Position numbers and translations under genes: made by a program. Shown here piece after piece: positions 6,015-32,627 of a stretch of DNA of 32,627 nt (the stretch's first letter is position 1; each line of letters begins with the position of its first letter). The notes beneath the pieces were generated by a model that saw only the letters and a program-made list of their open reading frames with translations, ran no database searches and was not told the origin of the DNA. This DNA is from a virus. Location: IMG/VR virus record IMGVR_UViG_3300042563_000864, positions 1-32,627 of that record. The stretch is one strand, 5' to 3'.

Positions 6015-6017
6015 ATC

Positions 6018-9780: not shown

Positions 9781-9829
9781 GACAAGTAATGTGAAAATTG
9801 AATGCTATAATTTACTTAAATTCAGCCGT

Positions 9830-10162
9830 TTAACTTAGTGTTTTTATTTCAAACTTTATAAACTCGCTCCCTTTGGCAACTATTGTTTTGACTATCACTA
9901 TTTTATAAACGTTTGCGTCATCAAAATTATACTTTTTTTGCAATATATCCAAAAATGGTTTCATGGGATTGTCTATGTCCGATGCTTTGTTGCTGAATCC
10001 AAACTCAAAGTCTATTTGATATGGCGGCTCTGGCAGTTGCATTGGCTTTAGTGTCAAAAGCATTTGTTTCTCATAGCTTTTATACTCTGGAGACTTAAAT
10101 CGTTTGCCTTGCCATGCTTTGTTTACGCTTAAAGGTTTGATGTATGCAATTCCAATAGCCAT
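9830..10162 (-). CDS. rusA: RusA-like Holliday junction resolvase
   Basis: A 110-residue endonuclease of the RusA family. Motifs are PLSVNKAWQGKRFKS near the N-terminus and the acidic SDIDNPMKPFLDILQKKYNFDD core. The Asp residues of D-I-D-N-P-x-K...D and the downstream D-D are the metal-binding positions in the family. I chose the ATG at 10162 (MAIGIAYIKPLS) because RusA proteins begin a few residues before P-L-S-x-N; the longer frame to 10210 adds a low-complexity Gln/Arg tail inside the HNH gene. It resolves branched DNA before or during packaging, which suits its place just before the terminases. Confidence 0.9.
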   Translation of the reverse strand: MAIGIAYIKPLSVNKAWQGKRFKSPEYKSYEKQMLLTLKPMQLPEPPYQIDFEFGFSNKASDIDNPMKPFLDILQKKYNFDDANVYKIVIVKTIVAKGSEFIKFEIKTLS

Positions 10163-10383
10163 TCTTTTGTCAGTTTGTTGTCGTGTGCTTTGTTGTGGCA
10201 TTCTCTGCATAGTGCAATTAAGTTTTCAATTGCGTCTTGTTGGTCTTTAATCTTCTTGCCGAACTTAGACCTAAACACAATGTGATGGATGTCCACTGCT
10301 TTAGCTTTGCATACTTCGCAGGCAATAAACGAATGCTCGTCTAAGCCGTAATGGTTAAAATAAACTTTGATGTGCTTTTGCAT
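10129..10383 (-). CDS. HNH endonuclease
   Basis: An 84-residue HNH nuclease. Zinc-knuckle pairs C22-x-x-C25 and C59-x-x-C62 flank the D-I-H-H motif (residues 31-34), Asn54 and C-H-N-K-A-H (62-67), giving the complete His-Asn-His arrangement. Small HNH proteins next to terminase genes are required for DNA packaging or maturation in several siphophages, and this one precedes rusA-terS-terL in the same direction. It could instead be a homing-type nuclease, but its conserved place favours packaging. Its start is preceded by the repeat-rich non-coding region 10384-10600. Confidence 0.9.
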   Translation of the reverse strand: MQKHIKVYFNHYGLDEHSFIACEVCKAKAVDIHHIVFRSKFGKKIKDQQDAIENLIALCRECHNKAHDNKLTKEWLLELHTSNL

Positions 10384-10600
10384 TGTTGTTTGTGGCTCAT
10401 TATTCGTATTAATTCGTATAAATGCGGCTCACTTTTGAGCCACAAATGTTAAATGTTATTTTAAGCCTTGTTAAATGTTTGCATGTTTTTTTAGTAAAGT
10501 TTCATGCACTTTGTCCAGTTAAATCGTTAAAAAACTGGACTTTATATCCTTTGCAATATTTATGCTTATTGGCTTTTGTTAAATTCACTTATGCAATTTG
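10384..10600. promoter_or_regulatory. Repeat-rich non-coding region (regulatory region or candidate origin)
   Basis: The largest non-coding stretch (217 bp), very AT-rich. It holds five copies of GTTAAAT on the plus strand (10448, 10470, 10518, 10578, 10600). Inverted repeats include TGTGGCTCA/TGAGCCACA (10391-10399, 10436-10444), an inner GGCTCA/TGAGCC hairpin (10426-10441), TGCATG/CATGCA (10480-10485, 10503-10508) and the 8-bp pair GTCCAGTT/AACTGGAC (10513-10540). ATTCGTAT repeats exactly one helical turn apart (10402, 10412). It lies between the middle genes and the packaging genes, so late-gene control, replication initiation, or terminase recognition are all possible. Confidence 0.65.
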
Positions 10601-10870
10601 TTAAATAGTTTTTTCGCCAATTGTGAAATTGTCTATTCGCTCCCTTGCAAATATTTTAAATTCATTCCCTTTGGCATCTTTAAAAATAATATTAGAATGT
10701 TTTTTATTGCTAATATGAATGGTTAAATTTTTTGTGCCTTTTTGTGGTATTGCCAATAAAACTGGCTCATCTTCATTAAATTGAAATACCCATTCGGCAT
10801 TATCATATTCTGGAATTTTAAATGTTTCCTTTTGTTGAGGTTTAAACAAATTTAATATTGCTTTTGTCAT
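10601..10870 (-). CDS. Hypothetical protein (89 aa)
   Basis: An 89-residue protein starting MTKAILNLFKPQQKETFKIP. It is beta-rich with alternating polar and hydrophobic residues (WVFQFNEDEPVLLAIPQKG, KNLTIHISNK) and has no motif I recognise. It overlaps the upstream gene by 4 nt (ATGA), so it belongs to the middle operon, and it is the last gene before the non-coding region 10384-10600. Function unknown. Confidence 0.65.
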   Translation of the reverse strand: MTKAILNLFKPQQKETFKIPEYDNAEWVFQFNEDEPVLLAIPQKGTKNLTIHISNKKHSNIIFKDAKGNEFKIFARERIDNFTIGEKTI

Positions 10871-11286
10871 AACTTTTCTATTTCTTGTTTAACTTTTATC
10901 CAATATACTGCAACTGATTCAAATAATTTATCGTCTGCAACTTCTTTAGCCACCTGCTCTATTTGCTTAACTGATTCCAGTGCAAGTTGTTTAGCTAAAT
11001 TTAAATCAATGTGTTGAGCATACCCAACCAAATCGCCAACCAATTCAATTGCTTTTTGTTCTGGTGTTTTAATTCCACTGGCCTTTTGTTTTATTTTAAA
11101 ATATGAGTTTTCCCAAGTTGTGGTTGTGCCTGCAAAAAATGCCTCTTTAATTAAATCGAGTTCCATTTCTTTGGCAACTTCAAGTATCATTTCAACTTTT
11201 GATTCATTCCCTTTTGGAATATAATCTTTTAATGCCGTTACTGCAAAAGTAACTCCAGTGTATTTTGTTTCGTCTTCTGGTATCAT
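10867..11286 (-). CDS. Hypothetical protein (139 aa)
   Basis: A 139-residue protein starting MIPEDETKYTGVTFAVTALK. The second half is strongly helical (PEQKAIELVGDLVGYAQHID...LNLAKQLALESVKQIEQVAKE) and ends in a Lys/Glu-rich helix. The AIELV and ALESV segments suggest a small helical bundle. I recognise no catalytic motif. It overlaps the next gene by 4 nt and is separated from the DUF3310 gene by 21 bp. Confidence 0.65.
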   Translation of the reverse strand: MIPEDETKYTGVTFAVTALKDYIPKGNESKVEMILEVAKEMELDLIKEAFFAGTTTTWENSYFKIKQKASGIKTPEQKAIELVGDLVGYAQHIDLNLAKQLALESVKQIEQVAKEVADDKLFESVAVYWIKVKQEIEKL

Positions 11287-11307
11287 AGTTTTATATTTAG
11301 TTTTAGT

Positions 11308-11574
11308 TTAAAAATCAAATGCTCCAAGTCTGTCAGTGATTGGATTCTCTTTTTTGTTCTCTGCTCTCAGCTTCTTAGCCATTGTTTCGTACCATTTAGC
11401 TTTGGCCAAATCCCTTTCAACTGGTTGGTCTGGTTTGTCGCCAAGTCTCATTCTGTATTTAAAGGCGTTCATTTCACAAAATGCAATGTATTTCTCAACG
11501 CCCCAGATATCAAGCATCATTTCAAATACTTGCTTATCGCCTTTTTTATAATAGTCTGGATTGATGTCGCTCAT
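11308..11574 (-). CDS. DUF3310-family protein
   Basis: An 88-residue protein with the DUF3310 pattern: NPDYY near the start, IAFCEMNAFKYRMRLGDKP in the middle, and ERDLAKAKWYETMAKKL. The motif C-x-x-x-x-x-K-Y-x-x-R followed by D-L-x-K-A-x-W-Y is the core of this phage family. T7 gp1.7, a nucleotide kinase, contains a related domain, so a role in nucleotide metabolism is possible but not shown here. It overlaps the membrane protein gene upstream by 4 nt. Confidence 0.8.
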   Translation of the reverse strand: MSDINPDYYKKGDKQVFEMMLDIWGVEKYIAFCEMNAFKYRMRLGDKPDQPVERDLAKAKWYETMAKKLRAENKKENPITDRLGAFDF

Positions 11575-11933
11575 GCTTTAAATAGTTTGTTGTAACTAAA
11601 CTCAAATGTAATTCCCCAGACAATGCAAAAGATGCAAGCGTCCAGAATGCCGTACATTGGAACGTACATGACAACGGCCAAAGATATAAAGCCGAGCATT
11701 AATCCTTTAGCCAAATGCCATCCATCTGTCAAAGCCGAAAGCATAGTGCTCGATAAAAAGAAACTTTCGCCGTTGCGAATGTCTCCATGTTTCCATTTGT
11801 TTTTCCAACTGATTCGCCAATCCCAGAATTGTTGGTTTTTAAAGTTTCTAAATATGGAAACATCGTATCTCGTTGACAATGTGTCCATCAAAGCGTTGCA
11901 CATTGCTGCTAAAATTATAAAAATTATACTCAT
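11571..11933 (-). CDS. Small integral membrane protein (120 aa)
   Basis: A 120-residue protein with an N-terminal hydrophobic helix (MSIIFIILAAMCNALMDTL), a polar Trp/Lys-rich loop (QQFWDWRISWKNKWKHGD), and two further hydrophobic segments (LAKGLMLGFISLAVVMYVPM and ILDACIFCIVWGITFEF). Three membrane segments are likely. It overlaps both neighbours by 4 nt in the middle operon, away from the lysis genes. A host-membrane function such as superinfection exclusion or metabolic takeover is possible, but nothing shows it directly. Confidence 0.65.
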   Translation of the reverse strand: MSIIFIILAAMCNALMDTLSTRYDVSIFRNFKNQQFWDWRISWKNKWKHGDIRNGESFFLSSTMLSALTDGWHLAKGLMLGFISLAVVMYVPMYGILDACIFCIVWGITFEFSYNKLFKA

Positions 11934-12121
11934 AGTCCTAAATTTTGGTTAATTATTTTGCTATTTAAAATTTTAAATGGAGTCTCTTTGCCCTTGCCAA
12001 ACAACTCTCGTTTGATTCGCCTATCGTATTGCTCCCAGTCATCGTGAGTGGCCATAATTTTAATATGCTTAATCACATGCCCCATCTGACAAATCAATTC
12101 GTAATATTTAGGATTCGCCAT
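11930..12121 (-). CDS. Small hypothetical protein (63 aa)
   Basis: A 63-residue basic protein starting MANPKYYELICQMGHVIKHI. It contains a THDDWEQYDRRIKREL helix and no recognised motif. The start overlaps the end of the preceding 245-residue gene by 14 nt and the stop overlaps the membrane protein start (ATGA). Its strict place in an overlapping gene chain supports it as real. Confidence 0.6.
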   Translation of the reverse strand: MANPKYYELICQMGHVIKHIKIMATHDDWEQYDRRIKRELFGKGKETPFKILNSKIINQNLGL

Positions 12122-12845
12122 TTTCTTTGTTTACTCTATAAACTAAATATTCAGACTGAGTCAATTTGCGCCCCTCTACGCTAATAACTCGCACCGCACC
12201 ACTACTTGGCTCACTTCGCCATAGTTCGTCAAACTCAGCAAGCAATTCACGTGTTCTCGACCATTCTTTTGGCTCTGGTGCTTTCTTATATTCTTTTTTC
12301 TCAATTATTTTTGTAGTTATTGCCTTAACTTGCTCAATTATTTCGTCCGATGGCTTATTATCCAGATAGCTTTGCTCCCACTTCTTATATTTTTCTTGAA
12401 TGGCCTCTGACTCAACTTGCTCCTTTGCCTTTTTTAAATCGTTTTCAAATCTATGCAAAATTTTAAAAATAGTGGTAATGTCAAAGGAATGAAACAACTC
12501 AATTTCTGGATATTTGCCCATTTTAAAGTTGTTAAACGCCATGACAATGTGCTGCACCGACCAATAGTAATATTCAGAATAAACCATTTGCGCTGCCTCA
12601 GCAATCTGGCTTTCGCTCATGTTCTTAGAAACGTTCAAAGAAACGATTAATCCATCGATTGTGCGTTCAATTACCTTTGAGACAAAGCCATCGCCCTGCT
12701 CTTTTCTAATCGATGCCAATGGAGTCGGACTGCTCGTTATCAATTCTTTGATGTTTCCCGAATACAACTTCGGCGATGTACTCGTCTGCTTGTCTAATGC
12801 GTTGCTCGACTGCATTTCTGTTCTTTTCAAATTCTGATTTTCCAT
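12108..12845 (-). CDS. Hypothetical replication-associated protein (possible helicase loader)
   Basis: A 245-residue protein. Residues 1-60 are polar and likely disordered. The centre (SESQIAEAAQMVYSEYYYWS, then VQHIVMAFNNFKMGKYPEIE) is helical and followed by a coiled coil (KILHRFENDLKKAKEQVESE). The pattern resembles a family that follows initiator-like genes in Bacteroidota phages, and its place directly after the initiator suggests a loader or accessory replication role, which is inference. It starts 140 nt inside the 3' end of the initiator gene in another frame. The next in-frame Met is at residue 11, so a shorter start would not remove the overlap. Confidence 0.6.
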   Translation of the reverse strand: MENQNLKRTEMQSSNALDKQTSTSPKLYSGNIKELITSSPTPLASIRKEQGDGFVSKVIERTIDGLIVSLNVSKNMSESQIAEAAQMVYSEYYYWSVQHIVMAFNNFKMGKYPEIELFHSFDITTIFKILHRFENDLKKAKEQVESEAIQEKYKKWEQSYLDNKPSDEIIEQVKAITTKIIEKKEYKKAPEPKEWSRTRELLAEFDELWRSEPSSGAVRVISVEGRKLTQSEYLVYRVNKENGES

Positions 12846-13491
12846 TTTTTATAGTTTGATTGTCTCTTTTTTCCCAATTTTTGATGGCTGCCGCCCAGTT
12901 TAGATATTTAACTCCTTTGGACTGCGAATATAGCAAAGCGCTTTCATAATACTTAGCGAGTTTTTCTCGTTCCCAATCTGGGAACGCCTCTTTAAATATT
13001 TTTTTTTCAAAATAAATAGAGTTTTCAAATGAATGTTTTTTAGTGGGCGTCAATTCGTTAGAATTGCTATACTCTTTTACTTTACTTCTATTTACTTTAC
13101 TTATCTTTACTTTAGATGCGTTTCGTACGTGTTCGAAATGCGTTTCATTTTCTGCAACATGCTGATTTTCACGCCAATGTTTCAAACGTTCTGCGCTTTT
13201 TTCTTTTTTTATCTTATAGTTTTCACTAAACTTTAGCAATTGTTTGTTGAAACTTTCGCCATTGTTTGACGATATTAGTCCAATACTTTCCATAAACGAC
13301 CAACATTTGTCCAACTTTTTACCGATGTTTAATTGCTTTTTTAGCACCGCAGTTTTGATTGGTTTTTCTTGTTGGGCGAACTTTTCTAATGCAGTATAAA
13401 ACAAGCCGAGACCCTCATAGCCAAAAGCCATGAATAGTTCTGTTACCTTTTCGTCATTAAAGGAGTTTGAATCGTGTAAAAAATACTTCAT
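12706..13491 (-). CDS. Replication initiator-like protein with DUF4373 (Lin1244/Lin1753) N-domain
   Basis: A 261-residue protein. Its N-terminal 90 residues (YFLHDSNSFNDEKVTELFMA, GYEGLGLFYTALEKFAQQEK) match the DUF4373/Lin1244-type winged-helix domain of phage replisome organisers: H-D-S...D-x-K...G-x-E-G-x-G. A basic linker follows, then a C-terminal helical region (FKEAFPDWEREKLAKYYESA, YLNWAAAIKNWEKRDN) like the DnaD-type end of such proteins. It probably binds the origin and recruits a loader/helicase. I start at the ATG at 13491. The frame is open further up, but those codons spell the upstream terminator hairpin (SRLVGFFF), so the extension is spurious. The terminator sits 7 nt upstream, so expression needs read-through or regulation. 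Confidence 0.75.
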   Translation of the reverse strand: MKYFLHDSNSFNDEKVTELFMAFGYEGLGLFYTALEKFAQQEKPIKTAVLKKQLNIGKKLDKCWSFMESIGLISSNNGESFNKQLLKFSENYKIKKEKSAERLKHWRENQHVAENETHFEHVRNASKVKISKVNRSKVKEYSNSNELTPTKKHSFENSIYFEKKIFKEAFPDWEREKLAKYYESALLYSQSKGVKYLNWAAAIKNWEKRDNQTIKNGKSEFEKNRNAVEQRIRQADEYIAEVVFGKHQRIDNEQSDSIGID

Positions 13492-21444: not shown

Positions 21445-21818
21445 TATTTACCCTCTTTGAAAAATTGCTTGAATAGACTTTTGCCAGTCATGTCTTTTAG
21501 GTTTTCGTCCAAAGACTTTAACTCTATGAACGCAATTAGGCCAGAAACAATCTTCATGACCTCAATAGTTGGCAAAAAATGTCTTTGAAAAATATGTCCT
21601 GCTAAGATTGCAAACATGTATCCCATTCCTTTGGTAATGGTTGGCCTCATTTTACGGCTTGTAATGGCTTCGCCTCTTTTATGAGCGGCAACCATGCCAG
21701 TGATAAAATCAATTAGCACCAGAAAGCTAATACCCATCATGACAGAGAATGTCGGAGCAAAATAGGTAACTAAATAAATTAAAATAACATCTAAACTTTT
21801 AACCAACCAATTTCTCAT
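21444..21818 (-). CDS. Holin (phage_holin_4-type)
   Basis: A 124-residue membrane protein starting MRNWLVKSLDVILIYLVTYF. I chose the ATG at 21818, which overlaps the upstream stop as ATGA; the longer frame has an atypical Gln/Trp/Arg extension. Two or three membrane segments are seen (VILIYLVTYFAPTFSVMMG, ISFLVLIDFITGMVAAHKRG, MGYMFAILAGHIF, MKIVSGLIAFIELKSLDENL). The motif D-F-x-T-G-M...A...R-G-E-x-I-T-S-R-K-M-R is the family hallmark (D-x-x-T-G...S-x-x). It forms the membrane lesion releasing the GH19 endolysin encoded next. Confidence 0.85.
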   Translation of the reverse strand: MRNWLVKSLDVILIYLVTYFAPTFSVMMGISFLVLIDFITGMVAAHKRGEAITSRKMRPTITKGMGYMFAILAGHIFQRHFLPTIEVMKIVSGLIAFIELKSLDENLKDMTGKSLFKQFFKEGK

Positions 21819-22147
21819 GTTACTAAATACGTTGAATCTTCTGTAATAATAAAAGCACTGCCATTGCCGTTGCCAGTTACTCTGCAAATGTCTTCATAAA
21901 CAAACTCGGCATTCTCTGGGTTTAAATTAGAATAATCATTTTGGCCATAAACCTCCATGTTGAAAATTCCCTCTGGAATGTTCTCATTTAAAATAAACGT
22001 AAAAAAGCCACATTGAACAGATGTATAAACATTTCTGTAACTCTGGCAACCTCTGTTAAAAACAAATAAATAATAATCATAAACAACCTCAGTTTCGTCA
22101 ATAAACAAAACAACTTTCGTGTCAATGTTTGCTTCAATAACTACCAT
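21815..22147 (-). CDS. Hypothetical late protein (110 aa)
   Basis: A 110-residue beta-rich protein starting MVVIEANIDTKVVLFIDETE. It contains several strands with Tyr/Phe (VVYDYYLFVFNRGCQSYRNV, GIFNMEVYGQNDYSNLNPEN) and three Cys. It resembles small proteins found between head-tail adaptor and lysis genes in Bacteroidota siphophages, probably a minor virion protein. It is preceded by a 31-bp gap and coupled to the holin by ATGA. Function unknown. Confidence 0.55.
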   Translation of the reverse strand: MVVIEANIDTKVVLFIDETEVVYDYYLFVFNRGCQSYRNVYTSVQCGFFTFILNENIPEGIFNMEVYGQNDYSNLNPENAEFVYEDICRVTGNGNGSAFIITEDSTYLVT

Positions 22148-22178: not shown

Positions 22179-22679
22179 TTATGATATGCCCCAGTTTTCT
22201 AAATTCTTAGTCTCATCGCAGTTATTGCACGATGTTTGGTCGTATAATGGATTCAAATTTTCGTTTAGCTTTAGCCATTCAAACATTTCTCTCGCATAGT
22301 TTTTGCCAATCTGTCTCCAATAATTTGCTTGCTTTTCGTTGGTGTCAAAATCAATAAATTCGCTCTCATCTGTAACCTTTCGCACAACGCTTTCCTTTGT
22401 AACTTGCACTGGATGGAAAAACATTAAGTCTCCAAACGCATAGCAAACATGCACTTTTCTTAAATAGCACATTAATTCCTCATTTGCGATAGTCAAAGTA
22501 TTTGTGTCAATCTGCTCACACAACTCATCGAATAAATCTTGACAAAGCAATTGATTAATATATGTAATCTGTGTATTTTTAATAGCAATTTCAATGTCTT
22601 CGCTCTCAACGTTTCTTGAAAGCGGCACAATGCCATAAAAATCTGTTTGTGTTATGAATTGACAACTGCAACAAGCCAT
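22179..22679 (-). CDS. Head-tail adaptor-like protein, Cys-rich (166 aa)
   Basis: A 166-residue helical protein starting MACCSCQFITQTDFYGIVPL. The layout F-I-T-x-x-D-F...V-x-S-E-D-I-E-I-A-I-K-N-T-Q...I-N-x-L-L-C-x-D-L-F-D-E-L resembles a family of connector proteins (DUF6712-like) in Bacteroidota phages. It directly follows the portal gene (1-nt overlap), the usual place of the first adaptor. Nine Cys residues, including CCSC at the N-terminus and CNNC near the C-terminus, are unusual and may bind metal or form disulphides. Confidence 0.6.
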   Translation of the reverse strand: MACCSCQFITQTDFYGIVPLSRNVESEDIEIAIKNTQITYINQLLCQDLFDELCEQIDTNTLTIANEELMCYLRKVHVCYAFGDLMFFHPVQVTKESVVRKVTDESEFIDFDTNEKQANYWRQIGKNYAREMFEWLKLNENLNPLYDQTSCNNCDETKNLENWGIS

Positions 22680-24112
22680 TATTTTACTGGATTAATAGGT
22701 GTAACAACTGGCGAAGACGTTGGCTTCGCACCAATCAATCCCGCTAAACTTCTTATCTCTGCCTCAGACATTGACTCCAATACTTTATTGGCAACCAATG
22801 GCGACAATGCGTTTATATTATCAATTATATTGTTTGCCGCAGTATTCAATTTGACTTCTTTAGCGCCATAACCAAACGCCTCTCTGATTTCCTCTTCTGT
22901 GAATGCGCTTGCAAATGATTCCGCAACAAATGCCAATGGAATTGAGTTGCTTACACTAATAGTTGTGCCATCATAGCCGTCCATTAATTTAGCCAATGCG
23001 TTCATTTCGTACATTAATAAATTTTGGTCATGTTTAATGACTGCGTTCTGGTAATATATTGACGAATCTGCTATTTCTTTTGCAGTTCCTAATTTGCCAG
23101 AAACTTGAATGCCTGCCAATATTGATGGAACTTGAAATGCAGTTGCAATGTGGTCTCTGATTAAATTAGAAAGTGTAATATACATTTCATGTGATGTGCT
23201 TTGGCTAAATGGAATAATTTGGATTGACCCCTCTTTTGATGAGCCATCTAAAATAGCAAATTTGCCTCCATTGTCTGCGCCAGTTAATCTGTCTGCAATG
23301 TATTCTCTCAACGATTCTTTCATGTCCTTACCATTCTCGTCCTCGCCAGTCAATTTGTATGGCACATAAACTATAAATGCAGGCGCAAACGAATTGTCAA
23401 CGTTGTTAGCATGGAAATTTTGAATCTGGCCATCCGCATAAATCCATTTCAAAGCAGACGCATATTTTGGCTGCGAATAATACACTTGGCCAGGCTTATA
23501 TCTGCGAATATACTTTAACGTTCCATTCCATTTACTGAAATCTTCGTATAAAGATTGCTCACTGAAATTTGAAATTTTAGCCTTTGTTTCGATGTCATTA
23601 TATAAGTCAATCGGAACGGCTTTATATCTTCTGTCTTTTGTTTCTTGTTGCCAGTTACTTGACAACTTTGCGAATGTTATTTCAAAATCTTTGTTTGGAA
23701 TACCTAAACGAATGGTCGAAAAATCCTGCGACTTAACACTTTTTAAATAGCCATTCAAATCCCATTTCATGATTAAGCCTAAAGATTCAAAATAAGCCAT
23801 GTCATAACAGATTCTCTGGTAAACTGACTCGTTGAAAATTTCTTTTAACCTTTTAGAGAAATCTGTTTCCTCTCCAGTGGGAGTTTCAAAATATAATCCA
23901 TCGCCATACAAAAATTTTGCGTGTGTTTCAACACAAGCATTTGCAATTGGAGACGATTGGACTGCTTTGATTAGTTCCTGCGGAAAGTTATTGTCTTTGC
24001 CATAGCGCACAATTTTGTTTGCAGTGTCATCGGTTTGATTAAAAACAGATAAATCCGCAGGCGCTTTGGCCGAAAACATGAAATAATTGTCTGATATTTG
24101 AGTAAGTTCCAT
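22679..24112 (-). CDS. Portal protein
   Basis: A 477-residue portal. Typical features are the N-terminal FPQELIKAVQSSPIANACVE stem-like helix, the central KPGQVYYSQPKYASALKWIY, and ESLREYIADRLTGADNGGKF. The crown/wing follows: IIPFSQSTSHEMYITLSNLI, RDHIATAFQVPSILAGI (the I-A-x-A-F-x-V-P motif conserved in portals), and a C-terminal acidic helical region. It forms the dodecameric ring through which the terminase pumps DNA. It is placed after the glycan cassette and before the adaptor, far from the terminase genes. A TAAATTTG box ends 5 nt upstream of its ATG. Confidence 0.88.
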   Translation of the reverse strand: MELTQISDNYFMFSAKAPADLSVFNQTDDTANKIVRYGKDNNFPQELIKAVQSSPIANACVETHAKFLYGDGLYFETPTGEETDFSKRLKEIFNESVYQRICYDMAYFESLGLIMKWDLNGYLKSVKSQDFSTIRLGIPNKDFEITFAKLSSNWQQETKDRRYKAVPIDLYNDIETKAKISNFSEQSLYEDFSKWNGTLKYIRRYKPGQVYYSQPKYASALKWIYADGQIQNFHANNVDNSFAPAFIVYVPYKLTGEDENGKDMKESLREYIADRLTGADNGGKFAILDGSSKEGSIQIIPFSQSTSHEMYITLSNLIRDHIATAFQVPSILAGIQVSGKLGTAKEIADSSIYYQNAVIKHDQNLLMYEMNALAKLMDGYDGTTISVSNSIPLAFVAESFASAFTEEEIREAFGYGAKEVKLNTAANNIIDNINALSPLVANKVLESMSEAEIRSLAGLIGAKPTSSPVVTPINPVK

Positions 24113-24117
24113 TTTTA

Positions 24118-24125
24118 CAAATTTA
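24118..24125 (-). promoter_or_regulatory. -7 promoter box TAAATTTG before the portal gene
   Basis: Exact TAnnTTTG match ending 5 nt before the portal ATG, in a 45-bp AT-rich gap after the glycosyltransferase. TTTGTAAA occurs twice in this gap (24153-24160 region and overlapping the box). This suggests a separate portal-lysis transcript. Confidence 0.45.
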
Positions 24126-24157: not shown

Positions 24158-24883
24158 TTACAAATCAAAATGGTTTGCCACGTCAATTGTCTTATAATCT
24201 TTGAAATGTATCATTTCGCCAGTCTCATCAAAACGTTTCCAAATGTCATATTGCCCATCGAATGCAGACGATGACGATGAGTTTCTCAGTTTACGTTCTA
24301 TATTTTCCCTCACAAACGAATAGTGGTGCATTCTAAGCCACTCAATTTGCTTATGTTTGGCGTAAGTATTGGTTCGCCTTGTTGGGTCTGCAAATGCAGG
24401 ATATTTTTTGTCGAAACACATGATTGTTTCTTTGTGAATCTTATGAATAAATGGAACGAAATAGTCTTCGTCTGGCGATAGTTGTTTAGTCGGATATTTA
24501 TAGTATGTTTTTAGCCTGCAATAACTTGCATCCAGTTGCTCAATATAAACTTGCTCCTTTGCTCGCTCAAAATCCTTACTAAAATACATCTCATCGCAGT
24601 CCATTTGAATAAAATGCGTACAACCAACGCTCTTTGCAGTTTGCAACCCTATATTTCGTTTGATAGTTTCATTCCATTGAGCAGTTTGCGTAAGCGCAGG
24701 AATATAAAAATTTGTTAAATCAATCAATTCATGTGGCAAAGTTGGCTCATATAATTCGCCAGAGTTGCTTACATTTTGGTAAACAACAATAACAACGTCC
24801 AAATGTGGTTTGATTAACTCAATCGAACGTCTCAGATGCTCATCGCCATCCCAAACATTCCAAATGCCTGCCAGTTTATTCAT
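24158..24883 (-). CDS. Glycosyltransferase (GT2-like), last gene of the glycan cassette
   Basis: A 241-residue protein starting MNKLAGIWNVWDGDEHLRRS. The N-terminus VVIVVYQNVSNSGE and the DxD-type motif MDCDEMYF (Asp95, Asp97) fit a GT-A nucleotide-sugar transferase, as does WNETIKRNIGLQTAKSVGCT (donor-binding helix with a nucleotide loop). The C-terminal half carries HKIHKETIMCFDKKYPAFAD and HHYSFVRENIERKL, typical of GT2 relatives that act on short glycans. It overlaps the membrane protein gene by 8 nt. Sugar and acceptor are unknown. Confidence 0.75.
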   Translation of the reverse strand: MNKLAGIWNVWDGDEHLRRSIELIKPHLDVVIVVYQNVSNSGELYEPTLPHELIDLTNFYIPALTQTAQWNETIKRNIGLQTAKSVGCTHFIQMDCDEMYFSKDFERAKEQVYIEQLDASYCRLKTYYKYPTKQLSPDEDYFVPFIHKIHKETIMCFDKKYPAFADPTRRTNTYAKHKQIEWLRMHHYSFVRENIERKLRNSSSSSAFDGQYDIWKRFDETGEMIHFKDYKTIDVANHFDL

Positions 24884-25151
24884 AATTAGAAACTATTAAG
24901 TCAATAAAATAATTGAATGAGGCCACAATCAATATTGTTGGAATAATGTCAACGCTTATCCCGAACAAAAGCGAATGCCAAACCAATGTATGCAGTGAGG
25001 CCATGCAAGTTAGACACAAGCAAATCGGCTTTCCAATTATCTTTGGTAATTTATCCGCAAATCTTTGGATAAAATATAAAATATTCCCATGTCTGGTTGA
25101 CCTATAAAAGCCAAAGCATAGCAAAGCAATTACAATAGAGTTGTATATCAT
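24876..25151 (-). CDS. Small membrane protein in the glycan cassette (91 aa)
   Basis: A 91-residue protein with an N-terminal membrane segment (IYNSIVIALLCFGFYRSTR), a middle segment with the Cys-rich KPICLCLTCMASLHTLVW, and a C-terminal hydrophobic stretch (VDIIPTILIVASFNYFIDLI). The C-L-C-L-T-C-M-A-S layout resembles small phage membrane proteins with a conserved C-x-x-C near a membrane helix (DUF1360-like). It overlaps both neighbours by 4-8 nt. It may anchor or partner the transferases at the membrane (inference). Confidence 0.6.
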   Translation of the reverse strand: MIYNSIVIALLCFGFYRSTRHGNILYFIQRFADKLPKIIGKPICLCLTCMASLHTLVWHSLLFGISVDIIPTILIVASFNYFIDLIVSNYE

Positions 25152-25759
25152 ACAAAAAGTGTTTTCATCTCATTTGGGACGTATTGTGGAAATATAAATT
25201 CATGTGGATGCTTTGACATCAAATAAATAATGTTTTTGCGTTGCTGCTCCCACTTCTTATTGTTGCCATAATTCTTTGTCCTATCAAAATCTGAATGTGG
25301 GATGTATCTCATTCGTCCAATAAAGTTCTTTTGAATCCCTTTTCTGGTTAATGAAATATACAAATCGGTGTCCTCGCCTCCATAACCTTTAATATTTTCG
25401 TCATAACCCATAAAATCTGAGCGCTTAACAATGCAATTGCCAGAACAATCTGGTTCGCCAGTGTAATAATTGCCGTCTTTTAAATCTAATTTATCAAAAA
25501 AAGTTGGGTCTAATAAAGTGTCCGCATCGCAAAAGAAAATCCATTCCTCGTTAGTTTCAGCAACCCCCAAGTTTCTGGCCTTTGATAAATGAAAGTCTTT
25601 TGCGGCCGTCAAGCATGAGCGGATTTTGTTTTCTCGGCAATATCTAAATGCCATTTCATCGCCGTAACATACAACGAATATCTTTGATTTGTCTTTGATA
25701 GTTGCAATGCACTTTTTTAAATGCAGCAACCTATCTTTGCAAGTTATAATTATATCCAT
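25148..25759 (-). CDS. Glycosyltransferase, GT2/GT7-type
   Basis: A 203-residue GT-A enzyme. N-terminal IIITCKDRLLHLKKCIATIK is the donor-binding strand, LSKARNLGVAETNEEWIFFC and DADT (Asp78, Asp80) form the DxD metal motif, and GYGGEDTDLYISLTRKG (125-141) is the G-G-E-D-x-D-L motif of galactosyl- and polypeptide-sugar transferases (GT7/GT2). The rest (FIGRMRYIPHSDFDRTKNYG) matches as well. It overlaps the methyltransferase by 10 nt and the small membrane gene by 4 nt, so the cassette is translated as a chain. Likely adds a hexose or HexNAc. Confidence 0.85.
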   Translation of the reverse strand: MDIIITCKDRLLHLKKCIATIKDKSKIFVVCYGDEMAFRYCRENKIRSCLTAAKDFHLSKARNLGVAETNEEWIFFCDADTLLDPTFFDKLDLKDGNYYTGEPDCSGNCIVKRSDFMGYDENIKGYGGEDTDLYISLTRKGIQKNFIGRMRYIPHSDFDRTKNYGNNKKWEQQRKNIIYLMSKHPHEFIFPQYVPNEMKTLFV

Positions 25760-26277
25760 AAAATTCCAATACCGCCCCAGTCAGAACCCTCAATAAATTC
25801 GTCATGCTCTTTGCCGTCTTTAATTTCATTCCAGAACTTATCCACTCGGCAGAATAATTCTCTGTGAATTGGCGTGTCTAAAATGTCATGAAATGCAATG
25901 ACCCCACCTTTGCGCACAAATTTAGAGTAAATTTCAAAATCTGCTTTAACTCCCTCATAAGTATGGTCGCCGTCAATCATAAGGAAATCAATCTTTGCAT
26001 TGCTATTTCCAAGCGCTTTAATTAACTCAGATTTTAGCTGCTTAGAGTCTCCGATTAAATAATCCACGCCGTCAATGTTTGAACGTTGAGACATATCAAT
26101 TGAAATGACTTTATCAAACAATTCTTTGTAAGCATGTAAGCATCCGCCGTCATAGCTGCCAACTTCGACTGCAATCTTTTTGCTCTTCATAGAGTTTAGC
26201 GCATGCAACAACTCTTCAAACTCTAAAGGCTTTTGTTGTGCCTTATTTTTTATCGCCAATTGGACTAATGTTTTCAT
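25750..26277 (-). CDS. SAM-dependent methyltransferase (Methyltransf_24-like)
   Basis: A 175-residue class I methyltransferase. The SAM-binding loop is AVEVGSYDGGC (36-46), the acidic strand end is ISIDMS (59-63), and IDFLMIDGDHTYEGVKADFE (96-115) with GGVIAFHDIL (124-133) is the hallmark of Methyltransf_24/CmcI-like proteins, many of which modify sugars. Within a glycan cassette it probably methylates a sugar hydroxyl, capping or tagging the glycan. The gene start overlaps the preceding 59-residue gene by 35 nt. Confidence 0.85.
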   Translation of the reverse strand: MKTLVQLAIKNKAQQKPLEFEELLHALNSMKSKKIAVEVGSYDGGCLHAYKELFDKVISIDMSQRSNIDGVDYLIGDSKQLKSELIKALGNSNAKIDFLMIDGDHTYEGVKADFEIYSKFVRKGGVIAFHDILDTPIHRELFCRVDKFWNEIKDGKEHDEFIEGSDWGGIGILWI

Positions 26278-26422
26278 ATTCTAATGTAATTTTTTTACCG
26301 ATTATTTTATTTAATTTTTCTGCTTGCTCAACGCTCACAATGTAGTCATTTAAATACATTTTTTTTGCAACCTCTAAATATAGGCCGTCATCGTCTTTTT
26401 TTAATACGCCTTTGATTTTCAT
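26243..26422 (-). CDS. Small hypothetical protein in the glycan cassette (59 aa)
   Basis: A 59-codon gene starting MKIKGVLKKDDDGLYLEVAK and ending ENISPIGDKK. It contains beta-strand-like and helical parts and no known motif. The start overlaps the upstream membrane peptide as ATGA; the end overlaps the methyltransferase by 35 nt. It lies wholly in the gap between larger genes and has good codons, so it is likely translated. Confidence 0.55.
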   Translation of the reverse strand: MKIKGVLKKDDDGLYLEVAKKMYLNDYIVSVEQAEKLNKIIGKKITLEYENISPIGDKK

Positions 26423-26592
26423 GCCATGTAAATAATTAAGAAAATAGCCAACTCAATTAGAATTGTTATAATCGTTTTTGTGTAATAAATGCGAGAGCCT
26501 CCATATTCCTTATAGAATCCCCAGTCTTTTTTATAAATCCTATTATAAGAAAGCAGCACAATTAATCCTAAAATGATTTTGTAAATGTTCAT
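26419..26592 (-). CDS. Small membrane peptide in the glycan cassette (57 aa)
   Basis: A 57-codon gene with two hydrophobic segments (MNIYKIILGLIVLLSY and TIITILIELAIFLIIYM) flanking a basic aromatic loop (RIYKKDWGFYKEYGGSRIYY). Two spans are likely. ATGA overlaps at both ends tie it to the upstream glycosyltransferase and the 59-residue gene. It could act as a membrane partner for the transferases, but no family is recognised. Confidence 0.6.
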   Translation of the reverse strand: MNIYKIILGLIVLLSYNRIYKKDWGFYKEYGGSRIYYTKTIITILIELAIFLIIYMA

Positions 26593-27242
26593 AATGTCCT
26601 ATGATGGTTAAAGTAAGCATTTGCCCCCATACCCCATTGGCATGGCGATGGCGTTAATTTAATATTGTATTTGACCGCTAAGTTTGTTAAAATACTTTGG
26701 TCGTGTCTGTGAGCCTTAAATCCGCTCAATTGATAATCTGGATTGCACTCATCATTAACAAGCATAAGATTTGAGCAAAGGTTAAAATATTCCTGCACAA
26801 ACGCTCTGGTCTCTGGTGTGTTTCTATAAATTTGGATTGCTGCATTCGCTTGCATTTGGTCTGGCATGCAAACAACGCCCATGTCGTAATATGTCTCAGA
26901 CTTGCACCAATCAATGTGCTTTTGTCCATTGTGAAATAGCTTTATATTTTCGCCCTCTTTGATTAAGTCATTTGGATTCTTTAAGCATTCAATTGTTGAG
27001 TCCAGATACATGACATATTCGCCCTCGTCAATGATGCTCAAAATGTAGTCAATCAAATAAGGTTTCCAAAGCCACCAACCATAACCTCGAGACGAATAAA
27101 GATGCTCGGGGTAAGCATCAAAAAGCATTTCAACACTCTTCTCGTTAAACGTTTTAGTGTACATAAATCTGCTCATGGATTTATGCAATTTATCGATAGC
27201 TTGTTGATAATCCTTAGTCCCGAAAGTTATGCAGATTGGCAT
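26589..27242 (-). CDS. Glycosyltransferase of the GWWLWKP type
   Basis: A 217-residue protein. The motif RGYGWWLWKPYLIDYIL (52-68) followed by VMYLDSTIE (77-85) is shared with polysaccharide-type glycosyltransferases: a G-x-W-x-W-K-P loop and a D-x-x metal strand. GMGANAYFNHHR at the C-terminus and RHDQSILTNLAVKYNIKLTP (residues about 174-193; the R-x-D-Q-S motif often seen near the acceptor site) also fit. It overlaps the GT10-like gene by 16 nt and the membrane peptide by 4 nt. Substrate unknown. Confidence 0.8.
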   Translation of the reverse strand: MPICITFGTKDYQQAIDKLHKSMSRFMYTKTFNEKSVEMLFDAYPEHLYSSRGYGWWLWKPYLIDYILSIIDEGEYVMYLDSTIECLKNPNDLIKEGENIKLFHNGQKHIDWCKSETYYDMGVVCMPDQMQANAAIQIYRNTPETRAFVQEYFNLCSNLMLVNDECNPDYQLSGFKAHRHDQSILTNLAVKYNIKLTPSPCQWGMGANAYFNHHRTL

Positions 27243-28006
27243 TTGGTTTTTATATAATTATATATATTTAAGTCGCTAAAGTAATATTCTTTTTGCTCTT
27301 CAACAAGTTTTTCTGAATCGCCCATGCTTGCAAGCGAAATAATAGCCTCTAAACGTTGCATTGTATTTTCAGCAATCGCCGAATAAGGTATCGGAAACGC
27401 ATTGCAAATCACAATATCCCAAAATTTCTCAGTTACGTAATAATCCTCAATTGAATTTTCAATGCAAATAGACGTGTGGTAATCAATTAAGCCGTCTTTT
27501 TTGTCTTTTAATTCGCCTTTGTATCTGGCATCTTTAATGTCCCAACCTTTGCCGTAAATATCCACGTCCAAATCCGATGCTAATATCTTTTCAACCAATT
27601 CGTTTCTGAATTGATACAACGTTCCCTCTCTCGGCTCTTGTTTGGCCACTATAAAACTGCACTTTTTAGTCTTTTCGGCTTTTAAATTCATTGCATCTTC
27701 ATAATCTAAGCCACTCCAATTAAACATCATTGGCAATTGGTTATTCACTGGCGCAATAAACTCAGCCACTTGCCCAGTCCAATCCTTATAATTTGCCGAC
27801 CAACTTGGCTCTTGCGCAAATGCAAAGGTTTTTGCAGGGTCTTTTATCTGTTCTGTGGTGTCATTGAATATAAATAACAAGTCATAATCATTTGAATTGG
27901 TAAACTTAAATGGTTTGACCTCTTTTTTTGGTGCAAATTGTCGCATGACCTCGCTTGCCAATACTTCAGACGTAGCATAGTTGCTTGTTAATTTTACTTT
28001 TAGCAT
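27227..28006 (-). CDS. Glycosyltransferase family 10 (fucosyltransferase-like)
   Basis: A 259-residue protein. The C-terminal half carries the GT10 signature: FRNELVEKILA (133-143), VDIYGKGWD (148-156), YKGELKDKKDGLIDYHTSIC and then IENS (182-185) with YYVTEKFWDIVI (189-200) and P-I-P-Y. In the alpha-1,3/4-fucosyltransferase family these form the GDP-fucose site (Arg, Glu-Asn-Ser, Y-x-T-E-K). The N-terminal part (YDLLFIFND) is the smaller acceptor domain. It would transfer fucose, or a related sugar, from a GDP donor of host origin; no donor-synthesis gene is in the window. GT10 is uncommon in phage genomes as far as I know. Confidence 0.82.
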   Translation of the reverse strand: MLKVKLTSNYATSEVLASEVMRQFAPKKEVKPFKFTNSNDYDLLFIFNDTTEQIKDPAKTFAFAQEPSWSANYKDWTGQVAEFIAPVNNQLPMMFNWSGLDYEDAMNLKAEKTKKCSFIVAKQEPREGTLYQFRNELVEKILASDLDVDIYGKGWDIKDARYKGELKDKKDGLIDYHTSICIENSIEDYYVTEKFWDIVICNAFPIPYSAIAENTMQRLEAIISLASMGDSEKLVEEQKEYYFSDLNIYNYIKTKCQSA

Positions 28007-28677
28007 AAATGTTTGATTTTAAAGTTTTTAGTTGCACAAAAGGTTGAAAAAAACCGCTCGCAAATGAATGTGTGCATCGGATAAAACTCAACGCCAGTGA
28101 TTGCCTTTATTTTTTCTTTTGAAAATCGACCCCATTTGTATTTAGTGTCTGTAAATAATCTATTTTGTAGCCATTTATCTTCGCTCTGCGACATTATATC
28201 CATTAAAGGGATTAACCATGTGCAAACAAACTCTTCGTAAATCTCAGAGCGTGTAACGTGGGCATTTTGATAAATGGTCGGAGTCTGCAATCGGTCTATT
28301 TTTAAGCCATTGAATTGGTTAAAAATATATTGAGCCGTCTCAATAATTCCAGAATGCCAATTCTCAGCCACTCGCCAGACATTTGGTTGCGTGTGCAAGC
28401 GATAAAACGTGTATATGTCAGCATCTTTAACGTCTGCCTCTAAGTTTTTAAGCCAATATGAGTTCTTTGATTCAAATTGCCACGAAAAAACGCCAAAGTA
28501 TTCGGCCTCTTTATGCTTTCCCTGCTCGATTAGTTCCCGAATGACGTGATTCTCAAATGCAGGCTGAAATGGTTTGCCCTCATAAATAGAATTATCATAT
28601 CCAATGGCGTTTGGACTGACATATTTCTTTGTTTTGTCATCAAAGTATATTTGATAAATTACTGATTTTGAAGCCAT
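28000..28677 (-). CDS. Hypothetical protein of the glycan cassette, possible glycosyltransferase
   Basis: A 225-residue protein starting MASKSVIYQIYFDDKTKKYV. It contains YFGVFSWQFESKNSYWLKNL, NAHVTRSEIYEEFVCTWLIP and FYPMHTFICERFFSTFCATK near the C-terminus. The layout (front loop, N-H/Y...T-x-x-Y...W-L-x-P, then an E-R-F/L-F-S ending) resembles proteins found with capsule and O-antigen transferases, but I cannot name a family. It overlaps the upstream gene by 19 nt and the GT10 gene by 7 nt, so it is part of the cassette. No metal motif is obvious. Confidence 0.55.
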   Translation of the reverse strand: MASKSVIYQIYFDDKTKKYVSPNAIGYDNSIYEGKPFQPAFENHVIRELIEQGKHKEAEYFGVFSWQFESKNSYWLKNLEADVKDADIYTFYRLHTQPNVWRVAENWHSGIIETAQYIFNQFNGLKIDRLQTPTIYQNAHVTRSEIYEEFVCTWLIPLMDIMSQSEDKWLQNRLFTDTKYKWGRFSKEKIKAITGVEFYPMHTFICERFFSTFCATKNFKIKHLC

Positions 28678-28835
28678 CTGTATGCTCTTTTATAACACGA
28701 CCCACATCCAGTGGATAAACGATTTCCAGTTGACCTTTTATACATATCAAATATTAAATGCCAAACAATGTCTTTTCTGTCCATTGCTTGTCCGCCATGC
28801 GAACTTACATGAATTTTTATTTCTGGTATTGTCAT
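28659..28835 (-). CDS. Small Cys-containing protein at the head of the glycan cassette (58 aa)
   Basis: A 58-residue protein starting MTIPEIKIHVSSHGGQAMDR and ending TGCGSCYKRAYRWLQNQ. The T-G-C-G-S-C-Y-K-R tail is a pattern seen in small phage proteins next to virion genes. I start at the ATG at 28835: the frame opens further upstream, but those codons (NHVASLFF) are the terminator read as protein. A TATATTTG box ends 4 nt before this ATG and a strong terminator lies just upstream, so the cassette probably has its own transcript starting here. Confidence 0.65.
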   Translation of the reverse strand: MTIPEIKIHVSSHGGQAMDRKDIVWHLIFDMYKRSTGNRLSTGCGSCYKRAYRWLQNQ

Positions 28836-28839
28836 AAGG

Positions 28840-28847
28840 CAAATATA
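28840..28847 (-). promoter_or_regulatory. -7 promoter box TATATTTG of the glycan cassette
   Basis: Exact TAnnTTTG match, 12 nt after the T-run of the terminator and 4 nt before the first cassette ATG. A terminator followed at once by a promoter marks a clean transcription boundary between capsid/tail tube genes and the glycan cassette. Confidence 0.55.
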
Positions 28848-28859
28848 GTAAAAAATCAC

Positions 28860-28899
28860 AAAAAAAAGAGAGGCGACATGGTTAACCACATCGCCTCTC
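28860..28899 (-). terminator. Strong intrinsic terminator after the tail tube gene
   Basis: On the minus strand a 14-bp stem (28899-28886 with 28881-28868) with two G-U pairs and a TTAA loop, followed by eight T. It lies about 22 nt after the stop at 28922. It ends the capsid-tail tube transcript. It is preceded by GTTTGGAGAGGC, also found at the terminator at 18828. Confidence 0.9.
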
Positions 28900-28921
28900 C
28901 AAACATTTTTGTTAAAACTAA

Positions 28922-29488
28922 TTAAGCAATTTTGCTTTCCAAATAAGCCTTTGTAGCTTGATAGCTTGTTACAAAGAAATCTGGTGCTAATTCTGACTCT
29001 CCGCCCATTGGTTGAGACAAGGTAATATTGAAAGCATTGTCATCGCCAATCAAAACTCCAGTCGCTTTTGTAAGCGCAGTGATTTCCAATCCCGCAGACA
29101 TGCCGTACAATTCAAATGTACCATTTGTCTTTTCAACTACAACGAATAAATCGTCAATCAATTTTAAATTATCCCAAACATTTTTCGCATCCTGCGTTTG
29201 TTGCTGAAATTTACCAGTAATCGTTTGTGTAAACGATTTGATATTGTTTTCGCCAGTAACCAATTCTTGACTTGCACCCGCACTTTTTGTTTTTGCGCAG
29301 AACTTGTAAAGATAGTTGTATGGTTGTAAACCTATTGCAGTAACAACGCCCTCAGAATCTGTGGTAAATCCACTATCGGTTAAATCCGATAGTGAACCCA
29401 CATAAATGTTTTTGGCTTTTATTCCGCCTACCGACTGCAAATCTTCGCAAGTCGCACAAGCTAATCCACTAACTATTCCACATGGCAT
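28922..29488 (-). CDS. Major tail tube protein (probable)
   Basis: A 188-residue protein starting MPCGIVSGLACATCEDLQSV. It is beta-rich with alternating segments (GGIKAKNIYVGSLSDL, NLKLIDDLFVVVEKTNGTFE, LYGMSAGLEITALTKATGVL) like tail tube subunits of Bacteroidota siphophages, and has four Cys, three in the first 14 residues. Tube status is inferred from fold type, high-expression context next to the capsid gene, and absence of another candidate. Its ATG has the clearest Shine-Dalgarno in the window (AAGGAGA, 29502-29496). A strong terminator follows. Confidence 0.65.
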   Translation of the reverse strand: MPCGIVSGLACATCEDLQSVGGIKAKNIYVGSLSDLTDSGFTTDSEGVVTAIGLQPYNYLYKFCAKTKSAGASQELVTGENNIKSFTQTITGKFQQQTQDAKNVWDNLKLIDDLFVVVEKTNGTFELYGMSAGLEITALTKATGVLIGDDNAFNITLSQPMGGESELAPDFFVTSYQATKAYLESKIA

Positions 29489-29519: not shown

Positions 29520-30494
29520 TTATGATAATGCGATAACAGATAAATCGCCATAGATGTATTGAGTTCCCATTTTGAACTCAGCATCGATGTAATTCATTTT
29601 ATCTCTTTTATCATAAAAGAAATCTAAAGTATTTGTGTCAGAAATTGCATCTGTTCCAATTACTAAATTCTCTCTGTATGTGTAAACCGCTCTGTGTTTG
29701 CTATTCATGTTATTAGCATTGATTACTTGAGACCAACGTGATTTCTTGTAAACTGGAATGCCTCTGAACATTAACATTCTTGCACCTGCTTCAACCATGT
29801 CCCATGATTTATCGCCACAACAAGCATCTTCACGACAAGTCAAATAGTTGTCATATAACTCTCTGGTTAATGCAAAATATTTGTCGCCCTCTGGCATTTG
29901 GTCTAAGATGTCTGGAGCAATTTCGTACATTGAACGCAATGTGTCTAATGCAGTGCAATCAGCTAATGTACTTACAATTGATACTCTCTTAACATCATAA
30001 GCATTTGCGCCTGCAATTAAGCGAGCCCAGATACCAGTACATGAAGCTAATGTGTCATTTGTTGAGTTCTCATCGCCAAACCATGCAATATCGTAAACGT
30101 CTAAACGCACTGCGTTTGTAACTTTGTCGATAATGTAGTTTTCAACGATTGTGCCCTCTAAGTTTTGAGCCTCGTTACCAGTTCTCAAATACTCTTCCAT
30201 GAAAGTGTTTTTCAAGTTCTTAGCACACTGGTCTAAGTTAACTTTCAAATCACAAACCTCAATAAATTTCTCAGTGATGTCAACAACATCGCCTGCATTA
30301 TCACGACCGCAACCAACCGATGGACGTACTACGCCAGATAAAATTGTGTCTAATGCTAATTGTCTTTTAGACTTAATGTCCAAAATGATTCTGAATTCGT
30401 TTTGTAACTCTGGAGTTAAAAACGTTGGTTTTATTAAAACCTCGTTAGCTTGTTGCCCTGCCCAACTAACGTTAATGTCTAATACATCTGCCAT
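29520..30494 (-). CDS. Major capsid protein
   Basis: A 324-residue HK97-fold-type capsid protein. The N-terminus (MADVLDINVSWAGQQANEVL) is followed by LQNEFRIILDIKSKRQLALD, FMEEYLRTGNEAQNLEGTIV and DVYDIAWFGDENSTNDTLAS, and the C-terminal region has RGIPVYKKSRWSQVIN and LDFFYDKRDKMNYIDAEFKM, matching major capsid proteins of Bacteroidota siphophages. It sits just after the ClpP-type protease. Eight Cys residues (including ACC near residue 228) are unusual for a capsid protein and might form disulphides. The AT-rich leader has no SD sequence. Confidence 0.85.
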   Translation of the reverse strand: MADVLDINVSWAGQQANEVLIKPTFLTPELQNEFRIILDIKSKRQLALDTILSGVVRPSVGCGRDNAGDVVDITEKFIEVCDLKVNLDQCAKNLKNTFMEEYLRTGNEAQNLEGTIVENYIIDKVTNAVRLDVYDIAWFGDENSTNDTLASCTGIWARLIAGANAYDVKRVSIVSTLADCTALDTLRSMYEIAPDILDQMPEGDKYFALTRELYDNYLTCREDACCGDKSWDMVEAGARMLMFRGIPVYKKSRWSQVINANNMNSKHRAVYTYRENLVIGTDAISDTNTLDFFYDKRDKMNYIDAEFKMGTQYIYGDLSVIALS

Positions 30495-32008: not shown

Positions 32009-32627
32009 TATAGTGAGGTTGTTGTTTCTATGACTCTAAGTCTGTTTTGAACTTCTGTTATTTCGGTTGCACTTACTACAAGTTGTAAGCCTCTCAATGC
32101 CTCTGCCATGTTTATGCTGCTATCAATCGCCGCATCTGGTGTAATCATTCCGCCGTTAGCAAATCCAGGTACTCCGATGCGCTTAAATGTATTTGAGCCA
32201 CCTAAAGCCGCTTGTTGTCTTTGATTTAATATAACCTCGCCAGTCTTAATAGTTGCTAATAAATTGTCGCCATTTTTTCTGCGAATAGGCATTCCCATTC
32301 CTGCGCCAATTCTGGTTCCAGATAAACCGCCATTTGCAAAGCCGTCAATCAATCCCCCCTCTGCGAATTGTGGGACTTCTACGGCTCTAATCTCTCGCAC
32401 TCTTTGGTAACCTTGCAACAAAGCAATACCCGCATTGATAGGCGCTAAAATTGAGCCAATAAATGGAATCTTTGACGTTGACTCGTAAATGTTTTGAGCA
32501 GATGTAAGTGTGCTAATAATTGTTGAGGCAATTGCCAATGCTTTCCCCGCTTTTGTATTTTCGCCTAATAATTTAGATAAAGCCATGAATGATTGACCAA
32601 CCGCATTTATGGCCTCGATTCTTGCTT
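32008..32627 (-). CDS. Tape measure protein, C-terminal part (continues from base 1)
   Basis: C-terminal part of the tape measure gene that starts at 1877; bases 32501-32627 duplicate 1-127. The ATG at 32586 is an internal Met (residue 598), not a separate start, because the same frame is open upstream all the way to 1877. The tail of the protein has a hydrophobic patch (SKIPFIGSILAPINAGIALL) and Gly-rich repeats of the form FAEGGLIDGFANGG and GFANGGM around a GEVILNQRQQ segment. This is a familiar C-terminus for tape measure and minor tail proteins. The stop overlaps the start of the next small gene (TAATG). Confidence 0.9.
   Translation of the reverse strand, partial: ARIEAINAVGQSFMALSKLLGENTKAGKALAIASTIISTLTSAQNIYESTSKIPFIGSILAPINAGIALLQGYQRVREIRAVEVPQFAEGGLIDGFANGGLSGTRIGAGMGMPIRRKNGDNLLATIKTGEVILNQRQQAALGGSNTFKRIGVPGFANGGMITPDAAIDSSINMAEALRGLQLVVSATEITEVQNRLRVIETTTSL
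32501..32627. repeat. Terminal direct repeat, copy 2 (contig circularity)
   Basis: Exact second copy of bases 1-127. Removing one copy gives a circular genome of 32,500 bp and restores a complete tape measure gene. Nothing at this place suggests cos or pac. Confidence 0.95.

Follow-up and report, generated by a model that had tools for sequence, protein, structure and literature searches.

Glycans on the capsid or tail tube have been described for the mycobacteriophages Che8, Corndog and Myrna (Freeman et al. 2023, in the account given by PMC12363180 and PMC12619734). In Maravista, a relative of Che8, the glycosylation genes are found close to the 3' genome end (PMC11256854), and in Rhodococcus phages a transferase and a methyltransferase have been read as agents of virion glycosylation (PMC13313380). 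Another well-known type of phage-coded glycan modification is the conversion of the host surface, as by gtrABC of P22 (PMC11436027). Phage-coded virion glycosylation and phage glycan clusters are already known, while no report of virion glycosylation in Bacteroidota phages was found in the searchable literature. Here we describe a glycan-building cassette in the virus record IMGVR_UViG_3300042563_000864 of IMG/VR, positions 1 to 32,627 (the window, that is, the whole stretch of 32,627 nucleotides analysed). What is new in it is that a 32-kb phage keeps a complete pathway fixed within its head module, at a site that is documented as empty in relatives. The cassette (Table 1) comprises six enzyme genes, here called gA to gF, and small accessory genes; it measures about 4.7 kb, or 14% of the ~32.5 kb genome, and all the genes that a sequence-only reading had listed are present on the minus strand at the coordinates it gave.

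The likeness to the systems of Che8, Corndog and Myrna lies in phage-coded transferases of tailed phages. Theirs act on capsid or tail tube, whereas the window has five transferases, a methyltransferase and a membrane protein in one strictly conserved operon of the head module. When all six enzymes were compared with 50,697 phage records by tblastn, no mycobacteriophage was among the matches listed, and Che8 gp110, Corndog gp38 and the Myrna enzyme are not detectably related to them. Because no homology was detected, the likeness would be one of convergence in function, if any. To our knowledge, what has been shown as a reason for glycosylating particles is the evasion of antibodies, in actinobacteriophages; in a phage that infects free-living bacteria such a purpose would be hard to understand.

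That the cassette would build a methylated and probably fucosylated glycan is well supported, because the enzyme families, an invariant motif of glycosyltransferase family 10 (GT10) and the synteny of GT10, GWWLWKP-type and GT2 homologs with genes for GDP-fucose all point to it, as the sequence-only reading had supposed with a "perhaps" for the fucose. Four of the enzymes are transferases with good support. The first of them, gB, matches PF00852 with 35.5 bits (cut-off 23.9) over residues 111-235, and its C-terminal GT10 donor motif EN...YVxEKFWD is present as IENSIEDYYVTEKFWD, with E183, N184, Y190, V191, E193 and K194 invariant in 9 sequences. The GWWLWKP-type enzyme, gC, belongs to a family with ~80 loci in bacterial genomes, several of which were examined and sit in polysaccharide clusters, and 526 loci in viral contigs; WKP, D81 (an Asp at the place of the metal-binding motif) and HRHDQSIL are invariant across phages and bacteria. 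The copy in the window matches no Pfam, PHROG or NCBIfam model, even though relatives abound in viral contigs from the environment. The predicted GT2/GT7 type of gE rests on PF00535 (29.7 bits, cut-off 23.3) and PF10111 (29.4 bits), both above cut-off, and on PF02709, just under it (22.6 bits, E 8e-5, cut-off 23); its DAD and GGED motifs are invariant in the alignment.

The enzyme gF, the best conserved of the cassette, has no Pfam match, but its predicted structure has a GT-A fold. Its model resembles ThuS (Z 15.1, root mean square deviation 3.1 over 163 residues), the fucosyltransferase WrtF (Z 14.6) and TarP (Z 13.9); the first two matches cover 163-168 residues, the N-terminal part being confidently modelled and the C-terminal fifth poorly. 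The acidic DCDE motif is invariant. Homologs of gF occur in Lak phages and in a 128-kb viral contig discussed below, and a scan of 395 Bacteroidota genomes at E 0.001 gave none; such an empty result carries little weight by itself, although the same set of genomes did yield gA.

The fifth transferase, gA, had been called probable, and this stands in so far as it is homologous to a domain fused to GT41, and profile scans, Pfam included, gave no known GT profile for it. Its own profile has two kinds of match at E 1e-12 to 1e-15: in three Bacteroidota genomes, a domain that follows GT41 (PF13844, checked in two of them) on its C-terminal side, and in one more genome a stand-alone protein encoded next to a GT2 and an FkbM methyltransferase. 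At the Bacteroidota loci L172, L173 and L174 the GT41 domain is followed by the gA-homologous domain, which has no Pfam family. Structure prediction, proposed earlier for every protein of the cassette, succeeded for gF and failed for gA, whose model (14 sequences) reached pLDDT 65 with no useful fold match and is too poor to use. PDB profile searches with gA, gC and gF gave no result. An impression from the sequence that gA might be a DUF4422-like enzyme received no support from Pfam.

The remaining enzyme, gD, had been read as a sugar-type methyltransferase, and this assignment holds: PF13578 (Methyltransf_24) scores 48.8 bits against a cut-off of 26.3, PF04989 (CmcI/rhamnosyl O-methyltransferase) scores weakly, and the motif IDGDHxxxGVKxDF is conserved. 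By hydropathy, all six enzymes lack membrane segments. As for the small proteins, the one of 57 amino acids (aa) is absent from the L045, L046 and L049 groups. A weak Bacteroidota match to the small membrane protein lay antisense to a gene of rRNA-methyltransferase type and was discarded as chance.

The cassette is a constant feature of its clade. All 16 distinct clade contigs that span the interval (16/16) carry the eight core genes within 4.70-4.81 kb, down to 76% identity of the major capsid protein (MCP), and gF lies upstream of the portal in 26/26 clade contigs with sequence there. The ratio of nonsynonymous to synonymous substitution rates (dN/dS) is 0.05-0.09 for each core gene tested, against 0.05 for the portal and 0.09 for the MCP; purifying selection on the cassette is as strong as on the structural genes. 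Since it was never lost or swapped in these 16 contigs and shows such low dN/dS, the cassette appears unlike those of the antigen-switching type. In five outgroups (Bacteroides phage BS-TP3, Elizabethkingia phage TCUEAP1, the gut fragment MT839511 and the Bacteroidota prophages L182 and L183) the order is protease, MCP, a gene like that for the 188-aa protein next to the MCP (with an extra gap in L182), a CxxC protein and, directly adjoining it, the portal. Because that junction is empty in all five, the enzymes are best read as an insertion between the CxxC gene and the portal that later became core. The comparison of relatives for gain and loss, suggested by the sequence-only reading, has given a clear before and after at the insertion site, and, with a pathway that takes up 14% of a small genome under conservation as strict as that of the portal, the question of its function becomes testable. 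The 58-aa protein at the head of the unit is probably a shortened form of the outgroup CxxC protein, whose motif and position it has in common with BS-TP3 gp5, TCUEAP1 gp17, MT839511, L182 and L183, their sequence homology being weak (E 0.06). Another contig, L208, was set aside as an informant on the junction; its portal is only 26% identical and it is a different phage.

The gene content, operon structure, insertion site, conservation, selection and enzyme families are direct observations, from which we infer donors, order of steps, timing and acceptor as follows. The cassette would be a cytosolic assembly line working during infection, probably late, in which five soluble transferases are fed by nucleotide sugars of the host, probably GDP-fucose for gB and UDP-hexose or UDP-N-acetylhexosamine for gE. 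Together they would assemble an oligosaccharide, O-methylated by gD, and the product is probably a short chain with fucose, a galactose- or N-acetylgalactosamine-type sugar and O-methyl groups. For the first step, which would link sugar to protein, gF is the foremost candidate as the best conserved and phage-borne enzyme, and a virion protein encoded next to the cassette, the MCP or the 188-aa protein, would most likely receive the glycan. In Pfam and PHROGs scans neither the cassette nor the scanned genome gave a flippase, polymerase, initiating lipid-phosphate transferase or GtrA/GtrB-like gene, and the cassette set holds no recognisable genes for sugar-nucleotide synthesis. Because no genes for a lipid-carrier start, for flipping or for polymerising are recognisable, a cytosolic acceptor is the likeliest.

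That this acceptor is a virion protein, most likely the MCP or the 188-aa protein, so that the particles are glycosylated, has in our judgement about an even chance. It is suggested by the late position of the genes, the lack of export genes, the conservation like that of structural genes, the neighbourhood of the related cluster in the 128-kb contig and the precedent of the actinobacteriophages. Moreover, relatives of gA are fused to GT41, a family that includes transferases of O-linked N-acetylglucosamine to proteins. Several observations weigh on the other side: that fusion does not fix the acceptor, the nearest folds of gF are a peptide S-glycosyltransferase and polysaccharide enzymes alike and so do not pick one, a membrane protein is a core gene present in every member of the clade, a host-type promoter of its own and a terminator that divides it from the MCP make late co-expression of the cassette no more than likely, and in bacteria gB and gC have their homologs in surface-polysaccharide clusters.

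The last three of these points would fit enzymes that extend or cap a glycan of the host surface (lipopolysaccharide, O-antigen or a capsule intermediate) on the cytosolic face, the product leaving by the host flippase, so that no further phage binds the infected cell or its debris. The conserved membrane protein would then anchor the complex at the inner membrane, and this reading is possible, if less likely than not. Homologs of gB, gC and the GT2 stand in tandem, in the same order as in the phage, in the clusters of Polaribacter (L134) and Confluentibacter (L154), which also hold a GDP-mannose dehydratase, a fucose-synthase-like epimerase and a polysaccharide flippase (Pfam run on L134). 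With these flavobacterial O-antigen or capsule clusters the cassette shares the order GT10, GWWLWKP transferase and GT2, whereas it lacks genes for sugar-nucleotide synthesis, flippase and polymerase, and gC identity is only 22-28%. Lysogenic-conversion cassettes (gtrABC and others, in P22 and SF6) resemble it in being carried by phages, in modifying glycans and in including a small membrane protein; in contrast, no cassette protein matched a GtrA flippase, GtrB bactoprenol transferase, polymerase or acetylase family in profile scans. Furthermore, the scans found no integrase, which leaves lysogenic conversion without evident use, the cassette is conserved and not diversified or swapped as those of receptor arms races are, and five enzymes are many for masking a receptor. 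Of the two readings offered at first, virion and host surface, a virion acceptor is the better supported on this evidence.

Two other destinations of the sugars can be set against the same gene list. Transferases of other phages glycosylate DNA (Pyle 2024, as cited in PMC12619734), and hypermodified bases could protect the genome from restriction; yet no hydroxymethylase, TET-like or thymidylate-synthase-like enzyme appears among the proteins scanned with Pfam and PHROGs (some small open reading frames lay outside the scan), the enzyme families are those of polysaccharide synthesis and the methyltransferase is of the sugar or small-molecule type, which makes this highly improbable. It is also unlikely, with nothing specific in its favour, that the product ends on a phage protein outside the particle, or is released at lysis as a free glycolipid or exopolysaccharide, a destiny for which there are no secretion or polymerase genes and which would be costly at 14% of a small genome.

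The glycosylated virion draws part of its support from related sets in larger phages. The unrelated 128-kb viral contig mentioned above (L263, IMGVR_UViG_3300008262_000014) carries, at 5272-13320, homologs of gF (39% identity), gD (37%), gC (36%) and gB (31%), and the positional counterpart that replaces gE is an unmistakable GT7. This cluster, longer and reordered with respect to that of the window, holds further transferases and methyltransferases and closely follows a virion structural gene (phrog_1645), a match to a tail-assembly-chaperone family and an endolysin; no recognisable relative of the MCP of the window was found in that contig. In addition, LR756501 (735 kb) has gB and gD-like and gE-like genes, and the marine virus AG-345-E08 has gC. 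All three clusters share enzyme families with the cassette, but they are longer, reordered and devoid of gA and the CxxC membrane protein, and the genomes of L263 and LR756501 are much larger. The enzymes are thus a recurrent phage glycan set, of which the clade of the window has a compact form, and synteny links these phage clusters to flavobacterial surface-polysaccharide genes. Taken as a whole, the proposal is tentative, with somewhat less than an even chance: a small Bacteroidota phage would put on its capsid a methylated, fucosylated oligosaccharide of several sugars, made by enzymes of its own, as an obligate and never-lost step of particle assembly and independently of mycobacteriophages, and the same enzyme set, present again in large unrelated phages, would be a transferable module for glycosylating virions.

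From 28677 to 24158 the cassette genes overlap each other by 4-35 bases and form one unbroken operon. The boundary that the first reading had assigned to it, a terminator and a promoter of its own, is confirmed: the intrinsic terminator is kept, with compensatory stem changes, in L002, L014, L021, L045, L046 and L049, and a TAnnTTTG box (TATATTTG) near the first ATG is retained in close relatives and in L049. TAnnTTTG is the -7 box of the main flavobacterial sigma factor (PMC9723704). Four genes of the genome have it 4-5 bases ahead of their ATG, against ~0.16 expected for a range of 3-6 bases, and this spacing suggests leaderless transcripts. Counts of sigma-70 promoters and terminators over the region were not above those of shuffled sequences, and the boundary calls rest solely on the conserved terminator and the TAnnTTTG boxes. 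The more distant relatives L045 (11700-11890), L046 and L021 have, downstream of the promoter in the interval from the 188-aa gene to the CxxC gene, a leader of ~60-100 bases that contains a GC-rich inverted repeat (GCTGCGG...CCGCAGC); the group of the window lacks this leader, which might be regulatory.

Table 1. Cassette genes, signals and flanking genes in the window, in order of transcription.
Feature	Position	Strand	Evidence or remark
MCP	29520..30494	-	synteny and similarity to XkdG-annotated BS-TP3 protein; phrog_11320, phrog_1623
188-aa conserved virion-module gene after MCP	28922..29488	-	left flank; phrog_19091; syntenic homolog in L182, E 1e-12
Intrinsic terminator	28867..28900	-	15-pair stem and T run; upstream cassette border, after the gene following MCP
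Bacteroidota -7 promoter box, TATATTTG	28840..28847	-	4 nt before ATG 28835 of first cassette gene
58-aa CxxC protein, first gene of unit	28659..28835	-	GCGSCY motif
gA, probable glycosyltransferase or accessory domain, 225 aa	28000..28677	-	core in clade; homology to GT41-fused domain
gB, GT10 fucosyltransferase-like	27227..28006	-	PF00852, E 1e-8
gC, GWWLWKP/HRHDQSIL transferase	26589..27242	-	bacterial and viral relatives; invariant motifs
57-aa small protein with transmembrane segment, accessory	26419..26592	-	hydropathy (KD) 2.16
59-aa small soluble protein, accessory	26243..26422	-	presence varies among relatives
gD, class-I methyltransferase, CmcI/rhamnosyl O-methyltransferase-like group	25750..26277	-	PF13578, E 1.4e-12
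gE, GT2/GT7-type transferase	25148..25759	-	DxD and GYGGEDxDLYI; PF00535/PF10111
91-aa membrane protein, core gene	24876..25151	-	invariant GKPICLCLTCM; hydrophobic segments, KD 2.21 and 1.51
gF, predicted GT-A-fold transferase, DCDE motif	24158..24883	-	predicted structure
Second promoter box, TAAATTTG	24118..24125	-	5 nt before portal ATG
Portal	22679..24112	-	right flank; phrog_11226, E 9e-33

The main genes of the window all lie on the minus strand, in the transcription order head maturation protease (phrog_94), MCP, 188-aa gene, cassette, portal, holin, endolysin and exonuclease. The cassette had been placed between capsid and tail tube genes on one side and the portal on the other. Its position between MCP and portal is correct, but the label "tail tube" for the intervening 188-aa gene is backed by no named family: its PHROG matches, phrog_19091 included, are to families of unknown function only, and a PDB profile search found no solved structure matching it. 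The same search was without a match for the MCP. The ends of the contig, 1-127 and 32501-32627, are identical, an overlap of 127 bases typical of circular assembly, and a tape-measure-like gene at 32008 crosses the joint into the open reading frame 3-1877; the contig is most likely a complete circular genome of ~32.5 kb. At 6018-6683 a probable tail or receptor-binding gene has a weak match to the endosialidase beta-barrel PF12195 (E 3e-4, under cut-off). The gene before the holin (21815-22147) is single in the window, but many close relatives, L002, L008 and L010 among them, have it duplicated in tandem, the two copies having diverged (~36% and 51% identity).

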